Part shown: piece by piece, positions 50,006-60,479 of the stretch
Position numbering within the stretch: the stretch's first letter is position 1
How the letters are laid out: each line of letters opens with the position of its first letter
Assembly: GCF_001687665.2 (NCBI RefSeq)
Contig: NZ_CP016543.2
Coordinates: 1,612,001 to 1,676,000 of the forward strand
Direction: 5' to 3'
DNA from: Planococcus donghaensis
Lineage (GTDB): Bacteria > Bacillota > Bacilli > Bacillales_A > Planococcaceae
DNA: 64,000 nucleotides
Program-made: the position numbers and the translations under genes
Notes under the pieces: generated by a model
Seen by the model: the letters and a program-made list of their open reading frames with translations, nothing else
Databases searched by the model: none
Told to the model about the DNA's origin: nothing

Positions 50006-50353
50006 ATGGAGACTTTATCTAAACAATCTGCAACTGACGTTACCGCTCTTCTGAAAGCCGTTAGCGATCCCACTCGTCTACTGATGATGAAATTGGTCGA
50101 GACGAATGAGTATTGCGTATGCCAATTTGTTGAAATGTTTGGGATGAGCCAACCAGCGATCAGTCAACATTTACGAAAGCTAAAACAAGCAGGGCTTTTA
50201 AAGGAAAATAGAAATGGGCAATGGCGGTTTTATTCGATGAATAAAGAATCCATCCACGCTACCTTGCTGTTGGATATTTTAAGCCACATTGAAGACTCCG
50301 ATGCACAACTTCAAGCTCTGCGCGCGAAAGAAAAACCGGTAAATTGCTTTTAA
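50006..50353 (+). CDS. arsR: ArsR family metalloid-sensing repressor
   Basis: A 115-residue ArsR/SmtB winged-helix repressor. Cys37 and Cys39 (EYCVCQFVEMF) sit at the start of the recognition region, as in arsenite-sensing ArsR proteins (ELCVCDL). The helix-turn-helix is GMSQPAISQHLRKLKQAGLL. An AT-rich dyad and a TTGACT -35 lie upstream. It precedes arsC by 29 bases. No arsenite efflux gene (arsB or acr3) follows, so export must be encoded elsewhere. Confidence 0.9.
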   Translation: METLSKQSATDVTALLKAVSDPTRLLMMKLVETNEYCVCQFVEMFGMSQPAISQHLRKLKQAGLLKENRNGQWRFYSMNKESIHATLLLDILSHIEDSDAQLQALRAKEKPVNCF

Positions 50354-50382
50354 AATTATAGTAGTACAAAGGAGAACTCATT

Positions 50383-50802
50383 ATGACGAAAAAAATTATT
50401 TATTTCTTATGCACAGGAAACTCATGCCGCAGTCAAATGGCTGAAGGATGGGCAAAACAACATTTAGCAGCCGAATGGGATGTATACAGCGCTGGCATTG
50501 AAGCTCATGGATTAAATCCAAATGCGGTAAAAGCAATGAATGAAGTAGATATTGATATTTCAACTCAAACTTCAGACATTATTGATAACGACTTGCTTCA
50601 CCGTGCAGATTTCATCGTAACGCTTTGCGGTGATGCTGCAGATAAATGCCCGGTAACTCCGGCACACATTCGTCGTGAGCATTGGGGCTTTGAAGATCCC
50701 GCAAAAGCACAAGGCACAGAAGAAGAAAAGTGGACGGTATTCCAAACAGTTCGCGATGCTATCGGAACGCGCATCGAATCGTTTGCGAAAACTGGCATCT
50801 AA
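50383..50802 (+). CDS. arsC: Thioredoxin-coupled arsenate reductase
   Basis: A 139-residue ArsC of the low-molecular-weight phosphatase type. The P-loop [13 protein letters not shown] starts at Cys10, and the redox relay Cys82 and Cys89 is complete ([12 protein letters not shown]). These are exactly the positions of the well-studied Staphylococcus aureus and Bacillus enzymes. It reduces arsenate to arsenite using thioredoxin. It is the second gene of the arsRC unit and is followed by a good terminator. Confidence 0.95.
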
Positions 50803-50818
50803 CTACATGATTAGCACG

Positions 50819-50854
50819 AAACCCACAAGCTTTTTAGCTTGTGGGTTTTCTTTT
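50819..50854 (+). terminator. Hairpin terminator of arsRC
   Basis: AAACCCACAAGCT pairs with AGCTTGTGGGTTT, followed by TCTTTT. Confidence 0.85.
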
Positions 50855-50960
50855 GTCTAAATTGTCAATCGATTCCAACAACTTCATTGACACAGTTGGG
50901 GGTGCTACTTATACTTGCTATATAACAGTTTCGCTATTTTTACACGAGAGGGGTCATTTT

Positions 50961-52556
50961 ATGCTGGCAACATTAACACCACTTGATTGGAAACGCCGCG
51001 CGGTAAAATACTATCCGGAGAAAGTTGCGGTGATTGACGGAGACAAAAAGTTTACATACAAAGAGTTTGGCAAACGAGTAGATCAACTTACAATCGCTTT
51101 ACATAATGCGGGTATTGGCAACAAAGACCATGTGGCGGTGATGTTGCCAAATAATCATGCGATGCTGGAGTGTTTTTATGGGATTATCCCGCTTGGCGCG
51201 GTGATTGTTCCGCTTAATTATCGCTTGTCTACAAAAGATTTAACGTATATTTTAGAACATAGCGACGCAAAAATATTAATAGTTGATGCGGAGTTCGGCA
51301 AAATGCTTGAAGATGTACAAGATGAACTCCCAATTGAAAAGTACATAATCGTGGCAGTAGATGGCTTTGAATCAACGATTAACGGAGAAGACTATGAAGC
51401 GTTTATCGAGAACGTAGCGGTTGATGCGAAAGTGCCTTACGTCGATTTGGATGAAAACCAAATGCTGTCGTTAAATTATACGAGCGGGACAACTTCTAGC
51501 CCCAAAGGAGTCATGCAAACGCATCGCACCAATTACTTGAATGCAGCCAACTTCTTGCATCATTTGGAGATTAAGTTCGATGACGTGTATTTGCATACCT
51601 TGCCAATGTTTCATACAAACGGATGGGGAGGCGTTTGGGCCATTACGGCAGCGGGAGCTACGCATGTTTGTTTACGTAAAGTAGACCCTCCGCTCATTTT
51701 GGAGTTATTTGAAAGTCATGGCATCACGTCACTTTGCGGTGCACCGACAGTTGTTAATATGCTTGTTAATGAACCTAAAGCAAAACAACTAGAATTGACT
51801 CAGACCATACGGATGGGAACTGCAGGTGCACCACCTGCTGCTGCTTTGATTGCGAAAGCACAAAGCATTCTTGGATTGAATATGATGCATGTGTACGGCT
51901 TGACTGAAACATCTCCGTTTATCTTGTACTGCGAATGGAAAAACGAATTTAATGATTTGGATTCTGACCAACAAGCATCTATAAAAGCACGCCAAGGCAT
52001 AGAACTCGCTTTTAATGGCGAAACAAAAGTCGTTAACCAAGAAGACGGCGAAGAAGTGGCTTGGAACGGAAAAGAACTGGGGGAAATCGTCACGCGCGGC
52101 AACGTCGTGATGGCGGGTTATTACAAAGACCCTGAAAAAACAGCAGAGGCAATTCGTGATGGGTGGTTTTATACTGGGGATTTGGCGGTGACGCATCCGG
52201 ATGGCTTTATCGAAATTCAAGATCGCATTAAAGACATGATCATTTCAGGCGGTGAAAATATTTCTTCTACCGAAATCGAAGGCGTTTTGTATAAGCATCC
52301 TGCCATTGCTGAAGTGGCTGTGATTGCTGTACCGGATGAAAAGTGGGGGGAAGTACCAAAAGCCATTATTGTGTTGCATCAAGGCGTGCAAGTAACCGAA
52401 CAAGAAATTCTCGATTATACGCGCGAACACATGTCGCGCTTTAAAGTACCAAAATCCGTAGACTTTGTTGAATCATTGCCTAAAACGGCAACTGGGAAAC
52501 TGCAGAAGTTCCAGCTGCGGGAAATGTATTGGGGACGAGGAAAAAAAGTAAATTAA
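50961..52556 (+). CDS. Medium/long-chain acyl-CoA synthetase
   Basis: A 531-residue AMP-forming ligase. The ATP loop LNYTSGTTSSPKGVMQTH begins at about residue 170. HVYGLTETSPF is the A5-type motif, WFYTGDLAVTHPDGFIEIQD the A7 region, and the A10 lysine is in PKTATGKLQKF. It resembles AlkK/FadD3-type fatty acyl-CoA synthetases. ATG 50961 has GAGAGGGG before it; frames reaching 50841 would run through the arsC terminator. Fatty acid plus ATP and CoA give acyl-CoA and AMP. It is monocistronic. Confidence 0.9.
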   Translation: MLATLTPLDWKRRAVKYYPEKVAVIDGDKKFTYKEFGKRVDQLTIALHNAGIGNKDHVAVMLPNNHAMLECFYGIIPLGAVIVPLNYRLSTKDLTYILEHSDAKILIVDAEFGKMLEDVQDELPIEKYIIVAVDGFESTINGEDYEAFIENVAVDAKVPYVDLDENQMLSLNYTSGTTSSPKGVMQTHRTNYLNAANFLHHLEIKFDDVYLHTLPMFHTNGWGGVWAITAAGATHVCLRKVDPPLILELFESHGITSLCGAPTVVNMLVNEPKAKQLELTQTIRMGTAGAPPAAALIAKAQSILGLNMMHVYGLTETSPFILYCEWKNEFNDLDSDQQASIKARQGIELAFNGETKVVNQEDGEEVAWNGKELGEIVTRGNVVMAGYYKDPEKTAEAIRDGWFYTGDLAVTHPDGFIEIQDRIKDMIISGGENISSTEIEGVLYKHPAIAEVAVIAVPDEKWGEVPKAIIVLHQGVQVTEQEILDYTREHMSRFKVPKSVDFVESLPKTATGKLQKFQLREMYWGRGKKVN

Positions 52557-52560
52557 CGTT

Positions 52561-52606
52561 AAAAACCGTTTATTCATGAAGTTTCTCATGAATAAACGGT
52601 TTTTGT
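52561..52606. terminator. Long perfect-stem terminator
   Basis: AAAAACCGTTTATTCATGA pairs with TCATGAATAAACGGTTTTT. It can act in both directions, ending the synthetase gene and the small gene at 52619. Confidence 0.88.
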
Positions 52607-52618
52607 AATTCATCATGG

Positions 52619-52780
52619 TTATAAAACGACTACAAAGATTAACGTGAACACTAAACTAGTAACGGTTGATATCACCCAGTAGTTTTTGTCGCGAATGTTG
52701 AGCAAAAGAAATCCAACGATAAAATTGATGAGTAGCATAGCGATAAACACAAGAGCCAGGGTAAGTGGTATATAGAACAT
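52619..52780 (-). CDS. Small two-span membrane protein (53 aa)
   Basis: Translation from ATG 52780 gives MFYIPLTLALVFIAMLLINF, a short loop RDKNYW, and a second helix ending FVVVL. GGAGGAG sits six bases before the ATG, a very strong ribosome site, and a terminator lies just past the stop. It starts 19 bases after the stop of the DinB-like gene on the same strand, so it is probably cotranscribed with it. Another frame covering 52656-52874 has no such signals. Function unknown. Confidence 0.7.
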   Translation of the reverse strand: MFYIPLTLALVFIAMLLINFIVGFLLLNIRDKNYWVISTVTSLVFTLIFVVVL

Positions 52781-52798
52781 AGAGTGCTCCTCCAACCG

Positions 52799-53335
52799 TT
52801 AAGATTGATGTTTCTTTAACTCCGACTGTAAATACGATTCTGATTTTCCTTTTGGAATACTCAGTGTTTCCCAATTGTCATTTTTTATTTGCTTTCCAAT
52901 ATAAACAATCTGACCGACGTGGTAAGCGTAATGAGCCATTTGTCTTTCAATGGCTTCTAATACTGTGTGTTTTTCTCCACGAATGGTGATCCTTTTTAAT
53001 AAGTCTTGGTTTTCTAAACTTCTCAATGTAGTAAACAATGTAGTCCAGCCTTTTTCCCAAACAATGATCAGTTCGTGTTTCGTTAAAATACCCTCTTCAA
53101 ATTCCTGATCACGATTTCTAGTGGGTTTTTCTCCATCCGTCGTTAAAAAATCAGACCATCTAGATGCCATGTTTCCACTTACATGCGTGACGATAATTCC
53201 CACGCTATTAGAAGCCTCGTTTAATCTCCAGTGAACATCAGCCTCAGATAATTGATAGATGGTTCGATCTCCAAGATCCTTAACACTTTGAAACCGCTCT
53301 TGAATCACCTTCAAATATTCTGTTTCGAGTTCCAT
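52799..53335 (-). CDS. DinB/DUF1572 family protein
   Basis: A 178-residue four-helix-bundle protein of the DinB-like superfamily, DUF1572 group. The metal-binding histidines are visible: one in GIIVTHVSGNMASRW (about residues 50-64) and two in MAHYAYHVGQIVYIGKQ (about 132-148), with DFLTTDGEKPTRNRD between. ATG 53335 is preferred, as the upstream ATG (53353) overlaps the AAGGAG site. Family members act as metal-dependent thiol S-transferases using bacillithiol or mycothiol, but DUF1572 members are uncharacterised. Confidence 0.85.
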   Translation of the reverse strand: MELETEYLKVIQERFQSVKDLGDRTIYQLSEADVHWRLNEASNSVGIIVTHVSGNMASRWSDFLTTDGEKPTRNRDQEFEEGILTKHELIIVWEKGWTTLFTTLRSLENQDLLKRITIRGEKHTVLEAIERQMAHYAYHVGQIVYIGKQIKNDNWETLSIPKGKSESYLQSELKKHQS

Positions 53336-53379
53336 AATTACACACTCCTTCATTTTTATACATGCCGAATTGAGGTGTT

Positions 53380-53685
53380 TTAGTGTTCAGAATCTATGGC
53401 AGCATTTGTATTGTCTTCTATAGAAGCTAAATACCCATCACTGTCTAACTTCACTTCTAAATAGTAGTTCTTGTGTTGCTGATTTTGCACAATCACAAAG
53501 TAATTGCCTCTGCCAACATCCTATCTAGTTCCGCCGTGAGACAAGTTATTGCTTTCGTGATAGTTAGTTACGATAAAATCTTTTGCGTAATGAAAGGCGG
53601 CCATTTCGTTTGCTTTATGTTCGCTATATAAATAAACGGCACCAACGATTATTCCGATAGTCAAAAATGTAAAGGCATGTGACAT
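53380..53685 (-). pseudogene. Small membrane-anchored protein gene with in-frame TAG
   Basis: From ATG 53685 the frame encodes a 54-residue part with one N-terminal helix (FTFLTIGIIVGAVYLYSEHK), meets TAG at 53521-53523, and continues open for 46 codons (start DVGRGNYFVIVQNQQHKNYY) to TAA at 53380-53382. The two parts together look like one short protein with an N-terminal anchor and a small beta-rich domain. Codon choice is protein-like on both sides. The ribosome site is weak. It is either a recent nonsense mutation or a sequence error. The family is not recognised. Confidence 0.55.
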
Positions 53686-53838
53686 TTACTGCTCTACTTA
53701 GAATAACTAGACTGACGGGTTTTTTTAACTCTATCATGAAATATTCCTTTTTTTTTACGCCTTCCCAAACTAAAGGACCCAATCCATGAAAGACTCATAA
53801 TTCAATTATAACTATAAAAAACGACTGTCATTCCGATA
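53686..53838. other. Intergenic region
   Basis: AT-rich stretch between the broken small gene and the promoter of the acylation operon. No gene or repeat recognised. Confidence 0.3.
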
Positions 53839-53887
53839 TTGACTTTTCTTTTCATATACTTATACTTGATTATGAGAATCATTTTCA
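53839..53887 (+). promoter_or_regulatory. Promoter with overlapping Fur box
   Basis: TTGACT (53839-53844) and TATACT (53861-53866) are 16 bp apart. Directly downstream, where transcription should begin, TGAGAATCATTTTCA (53873-53887) fits the Bacillus 7-1-7 Fur consensus TGATAATNATTATCA with only the two variable positions changed, and is a symmetric dyad. Binding there would block the promoter, so the operon from 53991 should be switched on by iron shortage. Confidence 0.75.
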
Positions 53888-53990
53888 ATAAGATTGTTAA
53901 AAGAGACTCCGTGGAAAGAAATTAACGGAATCGAAGTATATAAAATAGCGTCATGTTGATGCTCATGAACGCAATAGTGAAAGGATGTAA

Positions 53991-54242
53991 ATGATGAAAA
54001 ATATCGAAAAATATAGAAATGCTTTTATGGATGCGTTGGAACTGGAAGAAGAGGATGTAAGTGAAGAGTTAGCATTAGGAGAAACAAGAGAATGGGATTC
54101 CCTTGGACATATGATTCTGATTTCTACGATGGAAGATGTTTTTGATGTGTCAATCGATGCTGAATGGATGACAGAATTTGATTCGTATAAGGCAGGAAAA
54201 GAACTCTTGAATCGTTTAGGAGTAGACTTTGTAAATGAATAG
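53991..54242 (+). CDS. Acyl carrier protein of the Dlt-like operon
   Basis: An 83-residue carrier protein with the phosphopantetheine site DSLGHM (Ser37). It has the acidic helix composition expected (ELEEEDVSEELALGE). In the Dlt pathway this role belongs to DltC (Dcp). Here the carrier gene comes first rather than third. The stop overlaps the ligase start by eight bases, so the two products are made together. AAGG lies six bases before the first ATG (a second ATG follows immediately). Confidence 0.88.
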   Translation: MMKNIEKYRNAFMDALELEEEDVSEELALGETREWDSLGHMILISTMEDVFDVSIDAEWMTEFDSYKAGKELLNRLGVDFVNE

Positions 54243-55629
54243 GTTCAAAAATCTTGAAGAGTTTGGCACCCGAACCGCTGTATATGCGGAAAGAGAATAC
54301 TCTTACGCTGAAATGGTAGAGGTTGCTGACGAAATCTGCAGTCATGTAGGTGAAAGAACGCTGGTTTTTTGTTTGTCTTCAAATAACAAAGAGTCTTTAT
54401 TTGGCTACGTGGGCTTTATGAGAGGGCATGTTGTCCCTGTCTTGTTAGATGCATCTATCCCGGTGGAGCGGTTGCAAAAACTAATCGAGCTTTATAAGCC
54501 TTCGTACATTTGGGCGAGTAGTGCTAATCAAGACCTCCAAAACACAATGGAACAATCTTTTGTGTTTGGAGATTACTCATTATTTAAATGTCCGACAGCA
54601 ATTCAACATGATCTTGCTGAAGATCTTGCACTCCTTTTAACCACCTCAGGAAGTACTGGCAGCCCCAAATTTGTTCGCTTGAGTTATGAAAATATCTTCA
54701 AAAACGCTGAATCTATCGTGAAGTATCTTGATATTAAGGCAGATGATAAACCGATCACAACACTTCCTATGAATTACTCTTATGGGCTGTCGATCATCAA
54801 CAGTCACTTCATTAGTGGAGCGACCATAATTGTCACGGATGCATCGATCATGAAAAAAGAGTTTTGGGACGTATGTAAAGAGCAGCGAGCGACAACTTTT
54901 GGAGGCGTTCCTTTTGTCTATGAGATGCTCGATCGGCTGAAGTTTGAAGAGATGGAACTTCCAAGTTTGAAAAAACTAACGCAAGCAGGCGGCAAATTAA
55001 ACCCAGAGCTATCCGCTAAGTTTGCAAATATGTGTAGTCAAAAAGGGATTCAATTTTTGACTATGTACGGTCAAACAGAAGCAACGGCGCGGATGAGCTA
55101 TTTACCGGCCGAAAAAAACCTTGATAAAGCTGGAAGCATTGGAATTGCCATTCCAGGTGGCGAACTGATGCTGCAAGATGACACTGGCAACAACATTACA
55201 GTGCCTCATGAAATTGGCGAATTGATATACAAAGGACCCAATGTTTCTTTAGGGTATGCGGAGTCGTTAGTCGATTTAACGAAAAAAGATGACAACAATG
55301 GATTGTTGCACACAGGTGATCTGGCTTACTTTGATGAGGACGGCTATTTCTACATCACTGGACGAATCAAAAGAATCATTAAAGTCGCTGGAAGCCGCAT
55401 CAGCTTAGATGAAGTGGAAGAACTTTTAACTGAGCATGGTCATGATTGTGTGTGCGCGGGGACAGATGACCAAATGATCGTTTATACATTAAAAGAAGCT
55501 CAGCTTCAAATTAAAAAAATAATTAAGGAAAAATTAAACTTAAGGGGCGTTAAGGTTATCAGGATTGAGGAATTCCCACGCAACCCTTTTGGGAAGATCC
55601 TTTATTCCGAGTTACCTATAGATAGATAA
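54235..55629 (+). CDS. AMP-forming acyl/amino-acid ligase of the Dlt-like operon
   Basis: A 464-residue adenylating enzyme, somewhat shorter than DltA (about 500). Motifs are A3 LTTSGSTGSPKF (about residue 134), A5 MYGQTEATARM, A7-A8 HTGDLAYFDEDGYFYITGR and the A10 lysine in NPFGKILY, so it should be active. It is expected to load an acid onto the adjacent carrier protein. The substrate is not readable. The protein resembles acyl-CoA-synthetase-like members more than DltA by eye, so a D-alanine substrate should not be assumed. Confidence 0.85.
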   Translation: MNRFKNLEEFGTRTAVYAEREYSYAEMVEVADEICSHVGERTLVFCLSSNNKESLFGYVGFMRGHVVPVLLDASIPVERLQKLIELYKPSYIWASSANQDLQNTMEQSFVFGDYSLFKCPTAIQHDLAEDLALLLTTSGSTGSPKFVRLSYENIFKNAESIVKYLDIKADDKPITTLPMNYSYGLSIINSHFISGATIIVTDASIMKKEFWDVCKEQRATTFGGVPFVYEMLDRLKFEEMELPSLKKLTQAGGKLNPELSAKFANMCSQKGIQFLTMYGQTEATARMSYLPAEKNLDKAGSIGIAIPGGELMLQDDTGNNITVPHEIGELIYKGPNVSLGYAESLVDLTKKDDNNGLLHTGDLAYFDEDGYFYITGRIKRIIKVAGSRISLDEVEELLTEHGHDCVCAGTDDQMIVYTLKEAQLQIKKIIKEKLNLRGVKVIRIEEFPRNPFGKILYSELPIDR

Positions 55630-55764
55630 TTTACGATCACCTGAACTCGTTACAGGAGATGTGATAAAACTTTATCTACTGAAAGTTGAAATTGAGTGTA
55701 GGTAAGGTAGTTGTTTATCTTATTTCGTGTAAAATCTTAAGTTTATTTTTGATCAGGTGATTGG

Positions 55765-57216
55765 ATGACTTTTATATCAATTGAGTTTCTGTTATTTTTT
55801 GCAGGTATTGTTTTTACGTATTATTTAATCCCACACAAGTGGAGATGGATTCTTTTACTAGCCGCCAGTTACAGTTTTTACGCTACGTTGAGTGGCTACT
55901 TTGTCCTGTTACTCCTCACAAGCACAGTATTTACGTATTTTACGGGAATACTCATTGAAAAACAGGACACCAAACAACAGAAGAAAAGAGCCATGCTAGT
56001 TGGAATTTGCGTGTTGCTGTTTTTTCTCGGCTGGTTTAAATACTTTAATTTTGTAAATGACTCGATTCGAGCCATTTCAACATACATGAATTGGAATTAT
56101 GCCATACCGTATCAAGAAATTATCCTACCTTTAGCCATTTCTTTTTATACCTTTCAGGCAGTCAGTTACCTTGTCGACATCTCAAGAGGCAAGCAAAAAG
56201 CAGAAAGACATTATGGCTATTTCTCAATCTACTTTGCATTTTTCCCTCAATTGGTTGCTGGACCGATTGAACGTGCTAAAAAATTGCTTCCTCAATTCAA
56301 AGTTGAGCAAACGTTAAACTATGACAACATAAGCTATGGGATGAAGCGAATCGCATGGGGATTTTTTAAGAAAACATTGATTGCGGATCGACTCGCTCCA
56401 ATTGTTGCGAGTGTTTACGATAGTCCGGACCCAACCGGTTCACAAATTGTCCTAGCGACAATTCTGTTCTCAGTTCAATTGTACGCTGATTTTTCAGCAC
56501 TCAGCGACATTGCCATTGGTTGTGCACGGATGCTTGGGATAAAACTAACGGAAAACTTTAAGCAACCGCATTTTGCCACGTCAATCGGAGATTTCTGGAA
56601 TAGATGGCACATTACGCTTTCTACATGGCTTAGAGACTATATCTTTATGCCTTTATGTAAAGGAAAAAAGAAAAGAAGCGAAATTTATGTAGCTATCATC
56701 ATTACGTTTTTAATAAGCGGCATTTGGCACGGAGCGGCTTGGACGTTTGTGTTATGGGGGCTAATTCACGGATTTTACCGTGCTTTTGGAGATCACACAA
56801 AACATTTTCGTGGGAAGATGGCGACGTTTATTCACTTGGATCAAGTTCCATCGCTGCATAAATGGCTGCAAATCGCCACCACTTTTTTGCTCGTGTGTTT
56901 TTCGCGCGTGTTCTTCCGATCGGATTCCGTTACCGCTGCATTTGAAAATGCGCAACATTTCTTGTCGCCTAGTTCGTGGAACCCATCTGGAATCATTGGG
57001 GCGTTTGAGATGTTTTCACTACTCGACTTAGTGATTTTCAGCTTTTTCTTTATCGTTATGCAACTGTTTCATTATATCGAAAGAAAAAATACTTCGACAT
57101 GGAACTGGCTATCACAACGCCCGGCAGTTGCTCGTTTTGCCGTGTATGTATTAATCGTTGTTTCAGTTCTAGTGTTTGGTGCTACAGGTCAAGGATTTGT
57201 TTACGGTGGGTTTTAA
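55765..57216 (+). CDS. MBOAT O-acyltransferase (AlgI/DltB-like)
   Basis: A 483-residue membrane-bound O-acyltransferase with about 11 helices. The catalytic region is ISGIWHGAAWTFVLWGLIHG, with His322 and His335. FFPQLVAGPIERAKKLLPQF and DFWNRWHITLSTWLRDYIFM are the family landmarks. Size and sequence are nearer AlgI/PatA than DltB (about 400). It would move the acyl group from the carrier protein across the membrane to an acceptor. A 135-bp gap separates it from the ligase, and a small hairpin (ACGGAC/GTCCGT, 57227-57252) follows it. Confidence 0.9.
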   Translation: MTFISIEFLLFFAGIVFTYYLIPHKWRWILLLAASYSFYATLSGYFVLLLLTSTVFTYFTGILIEKQDTKQQKKRAMLVGICVLLFFLGWFKYFNFVNDSIRAISTYMNWNYAIPYQEIILPLAISFYTFQAVSYLVDISRGKQKAERHYGYFSIYFAFFPQLVAGPIERAKKLLPQFKVEQTLNYDNISYGMKRIAWGFFKKTLIADRLAPIVASVYDSPDPTGSQIVLATILFSVQLYADFSALSDIAIGCARMLGIKLTENFKQPHFATSIGDFWNRWHITLSTWLRDYIFMPLCKGKKKRSEIYVAIIITFLISGIWHGAAWTFVLWGLIHGFYRAFGDHTKHFRGKMATFIHLDQVPSLHKWLQIATTFLLVCFSRVFFRSDSVTAAFENAQHFLSPSSWNPSGIIGAFEMFSLLDLVIFSFFFIVMQLFHYIERKNTSTWNWLSQRPAVARFAVYVLIVVSVLVFGATGQGFVYGGF

Positions 57217-57291
57217 TCATAAACAAACGGACGCGTATGCGTGTTAGTCCGTCAATTTAGTAAAAAGAGTACAAGATCGAAAGGATTTGCC

Positions 57292-58203
57292 ATGGGCCGT
57301 TTATTCATTAAGTTAATTATAATCTTCACTGTGGCTTTACTGTTATTTATACCAGTGAATAACTTTGTAAAGCAGTCTCGGAGTTACAACATCAACGAGG
57401 ATATCCTGACGTTTAAGAAAGATCCTTATCCCGTTGATATTATCAATCTGGGTGCCTCTCATTCTATGTATGGTTATTATTTTAAGCCAACGGGTTTGGC
57501 TCACTTGGATTTAGCTCTTCCTGGTCAGGCGCTCGAATATGACTTTAAATTATTGAAAGAGTATGGTGAGTATTTGAAATCGGATGGAGTTGTCATTCTA
57601 TCCATTTCTCAAATGACGTTCATAAATAGTGAGAACGAGGATGTAGACGAAGGACGTTATTATGAAATTTTAGATCGTACGCAAATTGAATCGTTTCGAT
57701 TGTTGGATTATTATAAGTACATGTATTTTCCAGGCACAAATAGTGACAATTTTACTTCTGCGCTCTCAAGCAAATGGAAAGGCCTTAAATGGACTTCTCA
57801 TCAATCTTGGGCAAATAATGGGGAAAATTATGCAGAAAGAAAAACCGAATACGTAGAAGAGCAATATAGAAAAGCAATTGAGCATAATTACATGGAACAA
57901 AACCTAGAGCGGTTAAAAGAAATATTGGAATATTGTCAAGAGCAGGGCTACGAGGTCATTCTAACTATGGAGCCCGTACACAAGACGTATCAAGAACATT
58001 TCGACGAAGAAGTCATGAATCGACTTGTTTTTCAGTACTTAAACACTCTTGAAACAGATGTCCCTTTTTTAAATTATATGAACGATGAACGTTTCACAGA
58101 CAACAAAGAGTATTTTATCGATTCCGATCATTTAAACAGTAAGGGAAGAAAAAAATATTCGTGGATCGTTTACGAGGAACTCAAAAGTTTAGGGTATTTT
58201 TGA
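57292..58203 (+). CDS. Membrane-anchored SGNH/DltD-AlgJ-like protein
   Basis: A 303-residue protein with an N-terminal signal anchor (about 5-24) and an extracytoplasmic SGNH-type domain. The nucleophile is Ser56 in LGASHSMYG and the C-terminal dyad is DSDH (Asp277, His280) in DSDHLNSKGRKKYSW. DltD and AlgJ/AlgX-type proteins complete transfer of the acyl group to the polymer outside the cell. ATG 57292 has AAAGGA six bases upstream; a GTG at 57241 lies within a hairpin and has no ribosome site. Last gene of the Fur-box operon. Confidence 0.85.
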   Translation: MGRLFIKLIIIFTVALLLFIPVNNFVKQSRSYNINEDILTFKKDPYPVDIINLGASHSMYGYYFKPTGLAHLDLALPGQALEYDFKLLKEYGEYLKSDGVVILSISQMTFINSENEDVDEGRYYEILDRTQIESFRLLDYYKYMYFPGTNSDNFTSALSSKWKGLKWTSHQSWANNGENYAERKTEYVEEQYRKAIEHNYMEQNLERLKEILEYCQEQGYEVILTMEPVHKTYQEHFDEEVMNRLVFQYLNTLETDVPFLNYMNDERFTDNKEYFIDSDHLNSKGRKKYSWIVYEELKSLGYF

Positions 58204-58270
58204 ACGATTATTATGTTCTATTATTCATCGCTGCTCATTTGAGTGGAAACTAACATGGTTTGTATTAATA

Positions 58271-58326
58271 TCTCCTGGAGGGCAAGAATTGAAACACAAT
58301 TCTTTCTTTCCAGGGGATTTTTTTGT
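58271..58326 (+). terminator. Terminator of the Dlt-like operon
   Basis: TCTCCTGGA pairs with TCCAGGGGA and AAGAATT with AATTCTT inside, followed by a seven-T run. Confidence 0.8.
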
Positions 58327-58379
58327 CTATAAGGGCGAAAATTCGCTGCGTTTAGGACAAAGTTTCTTTATGGACCTTT

Positions 58380-58814
58380 TTAATTGAAGAAATGAATAGG
58401 GAGGTACGGGTATAAGAAGACAACTAGAAGATGAACTCCGATGATACTCCAAGCTACAAAGTGGTTCTCTATTTTTTGAACAACTATAAACATTAGTGAA
58501 CCTGTTAATGCGGCTAACAAGAAAAAAGGACTATTTGAACAATCTGTTAAAAATTCGAGTCCGACTCCAAGTATTATTCCGATACTTGAAAATATAGCAA
58601 CCTTTTTGGGGGTGAAGACCGCCTTATTTAAATCGCTACTTATTATAAAAATAGCAATCAATCCTATAACATACCCAATGAAAGTTGCATACATTATAAA
58701 AAAGTAAAAGTAGTCAGCTTGGTAGTGCGGATCAAATAAGTAAGTCAAAATCATGTATGCGGACACCGAAGAAATAATAGATGCGGAAGAACCTTTCAAA
58801 TAATTGAGTACCAT
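58380..58814 (-). CDS. Four-helix membrane protein of unknown function
   Basis: A 144-residue protein with about four to five membrane helices and almost no charged residues outside two short loops. The ATG follows AGAGGAG. No family was recognised. It lies 55 bases downstream of another small membrane protein gene (58870-59037), same strand, and the two may be cotranscribed. Confidence 0.65.
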   Translation of the reverse strand: MVLNYLKGSSASIISSVSAYMILTYLFDPHYQADYFYFFIMYATFIGYVIGLIAIFIISSDLNKAVFTPKKVAIFSSIGIILGVGLEFLTDCSNSPFFLLAALTGSLMFIVVQKIENHFVAWSIIGVHLLVVFLYPYLPIHFFN

Positions 58815-58869
58815 TTAACTTCTCTCCTCTAAACGATGTCATATATTAGTCAGCATTACATGTTCATAT

Positions 58870-59037
58870 CTAATTAATCGTTATTAAAAATGATGCTGTG
58901 CATGTGATAATTAGAGAAATTGCTAGTCCAATCTGATTTTTACTCATTTTTGAATTCTTTCGCGTTCCTATAAAAAGTGTAACAAGACCATAAAGTGTTC
59001 CACCCGCAAAAATGAGTGACAAGATTATCGAATCCAA
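58870..59037 (-). CDS. Small two-span membrane protein (55 aa)
   Basis: From TTG 59037 the frame reads MDSIILSLIFAGGTLYGLVT, then a basic loop (GTRKNSKMSKNQ) and a second helix ending TASFLITIN. AAAGGAGACG precedes the TTG by eight bases. The helix-basic loop-helix layout predicts both ends outside. Function unknown. Confidence 0.6.
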   Translation of the reverse strand: MDSIILSLIFAGGTLYGLVTLFIGTRKNSKMSKNQIGLAISLIITCTASFLITIN

Positions 59038-59323
59038 TTAAACGTCTCCTTTTGTTACGAGACTTTTTATACGAAGATTACCTTTCGCAAATGCCATTAT
59101 TAGTAAAATTAATATTTAAGTAAATCATGACATTATCAATGAAATATGTAAATGATTTTATCTACTAAGTAGTTCCCAGAAGAGAGGATTGTCTTTACTT
59201 TTATCTACAAACTTAAGTGTTTTAGTGCATGCTGAATAACCCTTTTTTAATATTTTTTATTTTTTAAATAATACCTTGTATTATAGAGTAATGTGAAATA
59301 AAGTAATATAAAGGGGTGTGAAA
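59038..59323. other. AT-rich intergenic region before the PadR gene
   Basis: Contains TATTAT about 45 bases before the PadR start, a possible -10, and the word AGAGGATTGTC (59183-59193) that recurs at 60637 and 61308. No gene seen. Confidence 0.35.
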
Positions 59324-59659
59324 ATGGAAATTAGTAAAGAGGTACTAAAAGGCCATATTGATACATTAATTCTTTCTCTTTTACAGGGCAGAGATATGTA
59401 TGGGTATGAAATAGCTAAAATTGTCCGTGAAAAAAGTGAAGACCAATTCGAGTTAAAAGAAGGAACACTTTATTTATCATTAAAGCGATTAGAAAAAAGT
59501 GAATGGATCACCTCTTACTGGGGCGATGAACAAGGACCAGGAGGAAGAAGGAAATATTACAAACTCACGCCTGTAGGTGAAAAAGGATTTGAAGAAAAAC
59601 GTTCAGAATGGGAATTTGTAAAAAAACTGATGGACTTATTTTTAGAAAGGGGAGAATAG
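59324..59659 (+). CDS. PadR family transcriptional regulator
   Basis: A 111-residue PadR-type winged-helix regulator: LKGHIDTLILSLLQGRDMYG at the start, EGTLYLSLKRLEKSEWI as the recognition region, GGRRKYYKLTPVGEKGF as the wing. ATG 59324 has AAGGGG eight bases upstream; the GTG six bases earlier does not fit. One base separates it from the next gene, a HAAS-domain membrane protein, the standard PadR-DUF1700 pairing. It probably represses its own operon. Confidence 0.9.
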   Translation: MEISKEVLKGHIDTLILSLLQGRDMYGYEIAKIVREKSEDQFELKEGTLYLSLKRLEKSEWITSYWGDEQGPGGRRKYYKLTPVGEKGFEEKRSEWEFVKKLMDLFLERGE

Positions 59660-59660
59660 G

Positions 59661-60479
59661 ATGAAACAAATAGAAGCGTATGTTGAGGAATTGTATCAAG
59701 GTGTCGGTGGAAACAAAAAAGAGATTAATGAGTCAAAAAAAGAAATGAAAAGCCACTTATTAGAAGCTGTTCATGAGTTGAAACAAGAAGGAAAATCAGA
59801 AAAAGAAGCAATTCAACTTGCTATTGAACGTTTTGGTGGAGAACAAGAAATGCGTTCGGTAGTTGGTCAGTTATTTAAGGCACAACGAATATTTGCTAAT
59901 TGGATTCTCTATTTAGCCATAACCGTTCTACTGTTAAGTGTTGTGGCAGTCGGATTAATTTCTGCATACGAAAATGAAAATGCCTCTGAGAATTCCGAAG
60001 TTGCTTCAGCTGTACACGAAATTTTAACTAGTCAAGGTTCGCTAACCGATTCAATGAAAACTGAAATTGCTGCTTTAATCGATGGAACAGATCAAATTTC
60101 AAAAGTTGAAATTTATAACGTCAGTGGTGTAGGTGTAAATTCCGTATTTGACTTCGTAAAGAGCGCAAAACCTGAGTATCAATACAGTAAGTCTGTTTGG
60201 TCTCCAGATTGGCTACTAGCGAACTTTTACCCTTACGGAAGTGGTGGGGGGGATAAGTGGTATGTTCAATTGGAAACACGACTTATCGGCAGCTGGATGG
60301 GAATTATTTTATTTTCAGGATTAGCGGTCTATGCAACGCTATTCACAATGTGGGCAATAATTAATGCCTATCATCACAGACGATTAACTATTGCCTGGAT
60401 TATTGCTTTTGCTATTTTTAATGTAGTCGGTTATTTAGTTTATATTTTAGTAGGTAAGAGAAAAGTGAGATATAACTAA
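59661..60479 (+). CDS. HAAS/DUF1700-type membrane protein partner of PadR
   Basis: A 272-residue protein. The N-terminal helical domain (about 1-75; ESKKEMKSHLLEAVHELKQE and AIERFGGEQEM) is the HAAS/permease-prefix type found beside PadR regulators. It has a membrane helix at about 78-100, an external domain of about 100 residues, and two more helices (about 212-265) with a basic end. The signal it handles is unknown. AGGGGAG precedes the start. A hairpin terminator follows at 60545. Confidence 0.8.
   Translation: MKQIEAYVEELYQGVGGNKKEINESKKEMKSHLLEAVHELKQEGKSEKEAIQLAIERFGGEQEMRSVVGQLFKAQRIFANWILYLAITVLLLSVVAVGLISAYENENASENSEVASAVHEILTSQGSLTDSMKTEIAALIDGTDQISKVEIYNVSGVGVNSVFDFVKSAKPEYQYSKSVWSPDWLLANFYPYGSGGGDKWYVQLETRLIGSWMGIILFSGLAVYATLFTMWAIINAYHHRRLTIAWIIAFAIFNVVGYLVYILVGKRKVRYN

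Follow-up and report, generated by a model that had tools for sequence, protein, structure and literature searches.

On the plus strand of the 64 kb window, by which we mean the whole stretch of DNA that was analysed, taken from a Planococcus-like bacterium, lie four genes encoding, in this order, a stand-alone acyl carrier protein (ACP), an acid-ACP ligase, an MBOAT and a membrane-anchored SGNH-fold protein, preceded by a probable promoter and a Fur box (Table 1). A sequence-only reading of the same DNA had listed these four reading frames, and all are present where it placed them. The ACP and ligase genes overlap by 8 bases. For the SGNH protein, ATG 57292 is a more likely start than GTG 57241, because related loci share an MGRLFIK-like start; AAAGGA precedes this ATG.

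Table 1. The four genes, their internal landmarks and the upstream control sites, in window coordinates
Feature	Position	Strand	Details or basis
Probable sigma-A promoter, TTGACT-16-TATACT	53839..53866	+	10/12 positions match
Fur box, TGAGAATCATTTTCA	53873..53887	+	12/14 defined positions of TGATAATNATTATCA; starts 12 bases past start of -10
Stand-alone acyl carrier protein (ACP), 83 aa, Ser37 in EWDSLGHM	53991..54242	+	
AMP-forming acid-ACP ligase, 464 aa; Ser182, Ala251, Lys454	54235..55629	+	PF00501 match, alignment, tree
MBOAT, 483 aa, His282/His322, FVYGGF tail with Tyr480	55765..57216	+	PF03062 match, alignment
Codons of MBOAT hexapeptide tail FVYGGF (residues 478-483)	57196..57213	+	
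Membrane-anchored SGNH-fold protein, 303 aa, Ser56-Asp277-His280	57292..58203	+	Predicted model, alignment; ORF listed from GTG 57241

The carrier-ligase-MBOAT-SGNH order is kept in all 36 close relative loci fetched (33 of them distinct), which puts the linkage of the four genes beyond chance. The neighbourhoods of these loci differ widely and, because gene order is constant while the neighbours change, the four genes are a portable cassette; no constant neighbour gene stands beside it in the 36 loci to name the acceptor. The order also differs from that of Dlt, as the sequence-only reading had pointed out, since the three control dlt loci run ligase-MBOAT-carrier-DltD.

The ACP falls under the cut-offs of the Pfam PP-binding and PP-binding_2 models and of the NCBIfam ACP models. 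The DSL serine ascribed to it is borne out by Asp36 and Ser37 in 37/37 cassettes, followed by L in 17 cassettes and by I in the other 20. The ligase matches PF00501 at 1.7e-45 (Pfam profile search), scores 109.5 bits against the DltA model TIGR01734 (cut-off 559.85), and is indeed shorter than DltA, with 464 aa as compared to 484-516 aa in the DltA controls. In B. cereus DltA, Asp197 binds the amino group of D-Ala and Cys269 sets chirality. Ser182 and Ala251 replace these residues in 37/37 cassette ligases, as judged from a sequence alignment, not a crystal structure; the pocket alignment left out rows DltA_L097 and own_L019, which are probably on the wrong strand. Binding of an aminoacyl group in the DltA style is therefore unlikely, because the position of the amino-group-binding Asp is Ser throughout; an amino acid might still be bound in some other way. 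Of the earlier proposal that a self-contained system transfers an acyl or aminoacyl group, the self-contained acylation part stands, while the aminoacyl option, in its DltA style, is weakened by Ser182 (37/37).

In the ligase tree, which took in 11 of the 37 cassette ligases, the cassette and its relatives form a 100/100 clade of 31, separate from a 100/100 group of six DltAs. This clade includes all nine cluster ligases, from Bacillota glycan-type clusters; interspersed with the cassette rows are P0081, P0085, and P0108, ligases taken from a database and of unknown context. Half of the related glycan-type-cluster ligases adjoin LuxE/LuxC, and a search with the cassette ACP profile finds ACPs near 5/8 of the related cluster ligases (9e-22 to 5e-27). 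The sequence-only reading had not noticed that the carrier-ligase half is related to ligases of glycan clusters. A comparable set, ACP-(SDR)-AMP synthetase-LuxE-LuxC, is found in group II flagellin glycosylation islands of Aeromonas according to the available text of PMC7874193. The carrier and ligase of such sets resemble those of the cassette, by sequence in the Bacillota clusters (L155, L156, L157, and L162) and by that description in Aeromonas; their output genes, however, are LuxE/LuxC, presumed reductases (profiled in L155, L156, and L162, and judged by order and sequence starts in L157), whereas the output of the cassette is the MBOAT-SGNH pair. LuxE and LuxC are absent among the nine window proteins profiled, and no neighbour is common to most cassettes.

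The MBOAT matches PF03062 at 3e-26 (Pfam profile search), reaches 161.2 bits against the DltB model TIGR04091 (cut-off 375), and has both of the histidines claimed for it (His282 and His322, each in 37/37). Its 483 aa, 66-112 residues above the DltB rows of the tree, agree with the AlgI/PatA size given earlier, and by sequence the protein is AlgI/PatA-like. The FxYxxF motif, an acyl-shuttle motif described in the available part of PMC12148441, occurs at the MBOAT C-terminus in 37/37 cassettes, in 8/8 carrier-less pair MBOATs and in 0/8 DltB rows. The FVYGGF tail of the window's MBOAT went unremarked in the sequence-only reading. Besides this tail, a scan of positions 52000-60000 found no separate DltX-like small ORF with the motif, though such a scan recovers a DltX-like ORF in 2/3 true dlt loci and so can miss one. 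In the MBOAT tree, which took in 14 of the 37 cassette MBOATs, the eight DltB rows (seven different) form a separate 100/100 group, and the cassette MBOAT groups with carrier-less pairs, the nearest compared being L135 from a polysaccharide-type cluster. The AU test did not reject a tree in which the cassette MBOAT and DltB together stand opposite the other pairs (p 0.106); because this leaves a side shared with DltB, the sequences support a place for the cassette MBOAT outside the DltB group, and no finer placement. With ligase and MBOAT both outside the DltA and DltB groups, the claim of a self-contained, non-Dlt system held up.

No Pfam model matches the SGNH protein over its cut-off. Its predicted structure (mean pLDDT 71, with residues 113-169 unreliable) matches SGNH hydrolases including PatB and DltD in structure comparison, and a single hydrophobic helix lies at the N-terminus (residues 4-22). 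Ser56 and His280 are kept in 37/37 and Asp277 in 36/37 (as Ser73, His297, and Asp294 in the conservation count, which numbered the protein from GTG); together with the helix, these agree with the anchored Ser-Asp-His protein described earlier. Against DltD (PF04914) the protein gives no match at E up to 10, as compared to 384.7 bits for the control DltD in L136, the one of the three control dlt loci in which DltD was profiled; for its relative in L135 the DltD score, 18.7 bits, stays below the cut-off of 22.7.

The Fur box, which the sequence-only reading overlooked, is the only site scoring 12 or more in the window. The Fur regulon criterion of PMC5467902 is a box with two mismatches or fewer within 250 bp of an ORF, and the one in the window, with two mismatches, lies 118 bases ahead of the ACP start. 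A Fur box is found upstream of 32/34 distinct cassette loci, each duplicate locus being taken once; 26 boxes are within 250 bp of the ACP start and six lie farther away, while at L027 and L090 the 700 bp upstream contain no box scoring 12 or more. All 32 boxes have TGA...TCA ends. Outside the cassette, the box frequency is 6/380 other genes (this comparison and the early box counts kept the duplicates L044=L077, L035=L086, and L029=L087), and 0/16 comparison modules (dlt, pair, and related-carrier) have one. A promoter score of at least 9 occurs at the box in 27/32 loci, as compared to 81/680 positions drawn at random from these upstream stretches; promoter-like sites overall are at chance in the region (23 found, 22.8 expected). 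Fur-type sites as good as the window's box are common: the host genome contains 40, versus 25 for the reversed pattern, and five of ten chosen from the 40 fall inside genes. Two sites in the host genome are exact Fur boxes, one at a FecCD permease and the other at a FecE-like/binding-protein operon; in addition, an ABC binding protein gene is preceded by a twin site, TGAGAATGATTTTCA. The cassette is probably repressed by Fur and, in the direction of control that we infer, switched on by iron scarcity.

We consider the whole to be best explained, with a probability of about 0.7, as a Fur-repressed portable cassette for surface O-acylation with an acid other than D-alanine. The ligase would activate a small carboxylic acid as the adenylate, and not D-alanine in the DltA style, and would load the acyl group onto the phosphopantetheine of the dedicated carrier. 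The MBOAT (His322, His282) would accept the acyl group from the carrier on the inner side of the membrane, a transfer suggested by gene linkage, although the MBOAT could, by analogy with PatA, use acyl-CoA. It would then attach the group, on the outer side, to Tyr480 in its C-terminal FVYGGF; because the MBOAT carries this proposed shuttle tail, no DltX would be needed. The anchored SGNH protein would receive the group on Ser56 and hand it over to the hydroxyl of an acceptor. This acceptor may be a polymer, wall-bound or secreted, and is most likely a wall glycopolymer. Low iron, by lifting Fur repression, would turn the cassette on. We infer every chemical step of this route. The product may even be a wall-tethered siderophore-like coat, that is, a surface polymer with ester-linked metal-binding acids (e.g. 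hydroxy- or poly-carboxylate) made in iron starvation, which we regard as unlikely. This coat would be made by cells in which no soluble siderophore synthesis was seen.

An acceptor that is instead a small molecule or lipid, e.g. a siderophore or glycolipid completed outside the membrane, seems unlikely. Fur control would suit siderophore chemistry and a polymer gene is never constant beside the cassette, but no siderophore synthesis gene was seen: the host genome has no IucA/IucC siderophore synthetase, and its 16 AMP-binding matches (some of them pieces of one gene, from a search not designed to catch every NRPS) lie in open frames that do not exceed 583 aa, which is not enough for an NRPS. 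In addition, the MBOAT-SGNH pairs covered by the available part of PMC12148441 act on polymers. It is improbable that the pair performs PatA/AlgI-type O-acetylation by acetyl-CoA while carrier and ligase serve a separate job; the grouping of the MBOAT with carrier-less pairs (L135 nearest of those compared) would fit, but carrier and ligase are absent from none of the 36 close loci, not even from the 16 found via the SGNH protein alone, the promoter and Fur box precede the carrier gene, and no terminator-like site was found in the 135-base gap between the ligase and MBOAT genes.

Very improbable, too, is that the cassette is a diverged form of Dlt, serving teichoic acid D-alanylation where dltABCD is missing. 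The sequence-only reading had named two joint findings that would refute its own, non-Dlt interpretation: ligase and MBOAT inside the DltA/DltB clades, which the trees do not show, and the lack of any other dlt operon, which is indeed what the host genome shows, with no DltA or DltB over cut-off and no separate dlt operon. DltB over cut-off is likewise absent from all 46 genus genomes (0/46) and from 32/33 cassette genomes tested, a set in which the genomes of L029, L030, L035, and L044 are not included by those names; moreover, the host keeps sulfatase/LtaS-family and TagB/F-family (teichoic-acid-type) genes as possible acceptor routes. Against a diverged Dlt stand the TIGR01734 and TIGR04091 scores far below their cut-offs, the absent DltD match, the replacement of both the amino-group Asp and the chirality Cys in every cassette, the lack of a Fur box at the three true dlt loci checked, and a genome (G066) that carries both the cassette and a true dlt. 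The least probable alternative is that PerR or Zur, not Fur, recognises the palindrome upstream. The regulators of this family do have similar boxes, but PerR and Zur boxes differ from Fur at positions 2 and 14, where 32/32 boxes have the G and C of the Fur consensus, and the two exact host-genome sites adjoin iron-siderophore-type transporter genes.

Compared to known systems, the cassette is like DltABCD/X in having a ligase, carrier, MBOAT, and SGNH-fold protein, with a carrier thioester as the donor by analogy. It differs in gene order and ligase pocket, in a longer MBOAT with the shuttle motif fused (DltB has about 400 aa, and the Dlt motif is on the separate DltX), in an SGNH protein without DltD match, and in its Fur box. 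PatA/PatB and AlgI/AlgJ share the MBOAT type, the fused FxYxxF tail, and a separate anchored SGNH-fold protein with Ser-Asp-His, but have, in the available descriptions, no carrier and an acyl-CoA donor, whereas carrier and ligase accompany the cassette in 36/36; the eight carrier-less pairs of this type that were checked have no Fur box. B. cereus PatA1/PatB1, which O-acetylates the secondary wall polysaccharide, is by description likewise a pair of MBOAT and SGNH-superfamily protein for a Gram-positive wall, and the available text of PMC9487903 does not mention a carrier or ligase.

In the available part of PMC12148441, MBOAT-SGNH systems split into Dlt, carrier-fed with a separate DltX, and others, acyl-CoA-fed with a fused motif. 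The cassette appears to join carrier feeding to a self-shuttling MBOAT, a combination absent in the non-Dlt systems of that account. If the wall-coat reading is true, this would be, within the literature searched, the first MBOAT to be fed by a carrier protein and to use its own tail as the acyl shuttle. With four genes, probably one promoter, and an environmental host, the cassette may serve as a compact test bed for the membrane crossing of other carrier-bound acyl groups, and it would tie acylation of the envelope to the control by iron in a set of bacteria that mostly lack Dlt (32/33 cassette genomes).

By distribution, the four adjacent genes for a carrier protein (ACP), an AMP-forming ligase, an MBOAT and an SGNH protein form a portable cassette. 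A ligase scan of the genome_contigs collection, at one genome per species, gave 50 loci; the 20 with ligase identity of at least 65% all hold the four genes in cassette order, which is absent from the 30 weaker loci (<65%), one of them (L076) having a ligase–MBOAT–carrier set in dlt order. With the SGNH protein as sole query against 100 genomes (the host and relatives), we retrieved 17 matches, the host's own included, and the whole set is present in all 16 other genomes. The resulting 36 loci (33 distinct, judged on the final 900 bases of the ligase gene) come from Planococcus, Planomicrobium, Solibacillus, Bacillus, Fictibacillus, Sutcliffiella, Metabacillus, Neobacillus, Chryseomicrobium, and further Bacilli. 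It is this pattern, the same genes and order with widely varying neighbours and presence in 14 of 46 Planococcus genomes, that marks the cassette as portable. Genome G013 (L014; L088:9423-12148) has a reported in-frame TGA in its SGNH match and an extra ORF between the MBOAT and SGNH genes, and its copy is possibly in decay.

The host genome (3.32 Mb, listed as 100% complete) encodes a ligase that shares 92% identity with its Planococcus halocryophilus counterpart, and the 135-base gap between ligase and MBOAT lacks a terminator-like site on the + strand. Further upstream lie genes with the sequence appearance of an ArsR-like regulator and, after it, a low-molecular-weight phosphatase/arsenate reductase (50006-50802), and a PRK08162-like acyl-CoA synthetase (50841-52556) that scores below that model's cut-off; a relative of the latter adjoins the cassette in five of the loci fetched, four of them distinct, and in the tree this synthetase is widely separated from the cassette ligase.

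Coordinates of the cassette, its predicted Fur box and related gene sets in other loci
Feature	Coordinates	Strand	Remark
Predicted Fur box TGAGAATCATTTTCA	53873-53887		Directly after promoter-like TTGACT-16-TATACT
Carrier protein (ACP)	53991-54242	+	
Ligase	54235-55629	+	8-base overlap with carrier gene
MBOAT	55765-57216	+	
SGNH protein	57292-58203	+	Start revised to that common to relatives, with AAAGGA upstream
MBOAT–SGNH pair	L135:9922-12351		G316:C45; MBOAT end FIYFQF
Cassette-family ligase	L160:6955-9473		G316:C45, ~25 kb from L135 pair; adjoins carrier-thioesterase protein
Carrier–ligase–LuxE–LuxC sets	L155:1434-5266, L156:8742-13303, L157:9261-13808, L162:6928-11580		

On sequence grounds, the cassette is not Dlt. 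Its ligase and MBOAT fall far below the curated DltA and DltB cut-offs, and its SGNH protein gave no DltD match in a family profile search; the SGNH relative in L135 matches DltD below the cut-off, at 18.7 bits against 22.7. Three true dlt loci, used as controls, have the order ligase–MBOAT–carrier–DltD rather than carrier–ligase–MBOAT–SGNH, and their DltBs (385–417 aa) lack the shuttle motif, a small DltX-like ORF being present in two of the three (FIYNEF, FIYNDF). According to passages of PMC4176424, DltA Asp197 holds the D-Ala amino group and Cys269 sets chirality; in our alignment these positions are Ser182 and Ala251 in 37 of 37 cassettes. Six DltA rows and eight DltB rows each form their own 100/100 group with the cassette outside, and an AU test did not reject placing cassette MBOATs and DltBs on one side against the other MBOAT–SGNH pairs (p 0.106). 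DltB exceeds its cut-off in one of the 33 cassette genomes tested (G066, which has a full dlt operon in addition to the cassette) and in none of the 46 genomes of the genus.

Relatives of the two halves lie in different settings. At 1e-90, the ligase profile found eight relatives beyond the own gene in 398 Bacillota genomes. Four adjoin a matching carrier, LuxE, and LuxC (the last two profiled in L155, L156, and L162), some with a metallo-beta-lactamase-fold or SDR gene too; L161 has a carrier and an SDR gene, in L159 and L160 the ligase adjoins a carrier-thioesterase protein, and L158 has the appearance of an NRPS- or PKS-like cluster. Judging from sequence starts, sugar-biosynthesis genes are nearby in L155, L161, and L162. 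By description, the LuxE/LuxC sets resemble that of Aeromonas flagellin glycosylation islands, given in part of PMC7874193 as ACP, 3-oxoacyl-ACP reductase, AMP-dependent synthetase, luxE, and luxC. Cassette ligases and three database ligases form a 100/100 group, nested in a 100/100 clade of 31 that holds all the cluster relatives. In Candidatus Anaerobiospirillum (Pseudomonadota; L047:5745-9799), a 45%-identical ligase is flanked by ketoacyl synthase-like and LuxE-like genes, by appearance.

The nearest MBOAT among those compared is in the L135 pair (42% identity), in a polysaccharide-type cluster of genome G316, where the pair and a distant ligase are perhaps a dispersed version of the cassette system. 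Since its ligase kin lie in glycan-type clusters and its MBOAT kin in a polysaccharide-type one, the cassette looks as if a carrier–ligase unit of surface-glycan acyl chemistry had been joined to an export-and-transfer pair. A second MBOAT occurs in several Planococcus genomes, namely G034, G015, G012, G045, G008, G032, G026, and G018; the one in G034 (L139:9225-10667) is AlgI-type, without carrier or ligase alongside.

The predicted Fur box TGAGAATCATTTTCA agrees with the Fur consensus at 12 of 14 positions (consensus from passages of PMC5467902; B. subtilis boxes, from passages of PMC6212828) and is the only site of such quality in the 64 kb window. Fur-type boxes (12–14 matches) lie within 700 bp upstream of the cassette in 32 of 34 distinct loci, L027 and L090 being those without, and within 250 bp in 26; all 32 have TGA...TCA ends, and 27 have a promoter score of at least 9 at the box, versus 81 of 680 random positions. 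The rest of these loci have 13 such sites in 710 kb, with a site before 6 of 380 other genes, and the 16 comparison modules have none (3 dlt, 8 pairs, and 5 related carrier genes, whose gene start may not be the operon start). The host genome has 40 sites with at most two mismatches against 25 for the reversed pattern. Ten were inspected. Of the two exact sites, one precedes a FecCD permease and the other has a pyridine-nucleotide oxidoreductase on one side and, on the other, a FecE-like ATPase accompanied by a Peripla_BP_2 binding protein; a one-mismatch site (293461) lies ~145 bases upstream of a ferritin gene (L189:1961-2616), TGAGAATGATTTTCA, a near-twin of the window box, precedes an ABC binding protein gene, one precedes a further gene, and the other five fall within genes. 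The quality of a site is thus no proof in itself, and the case rests on conservation across loci.

The individual parts are already known; we did not find carrier-fed input, a self-shuttling MBOAT, and Fur control combined in the open-access literature searched. Most economically, iron starvation would induce O-acylation of a surface acceptor, the acyl group passing from acyl-ACP to Tyr480 of the MBOAT motif FVYGGF, then to the SGNH nucleophile Ser56, and on to the acceptor, for which the host genome offers five sulfatase/LtaS-family and four TagB/F-family matches as candidate routes. In the ligase pocket, the residue with which DltA binds the amino group is absent; Arg286, which is invariant, may accommodate a second carboxylate on the acid. 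As the host genome has no IucA/IucC match, and none of its 16 AMP-binding matches lies in a frame longer than 583 aa, a soluble siderophore route is not seen; a wall-bound iron ligand is therefore a serious, if unproven, possibility.
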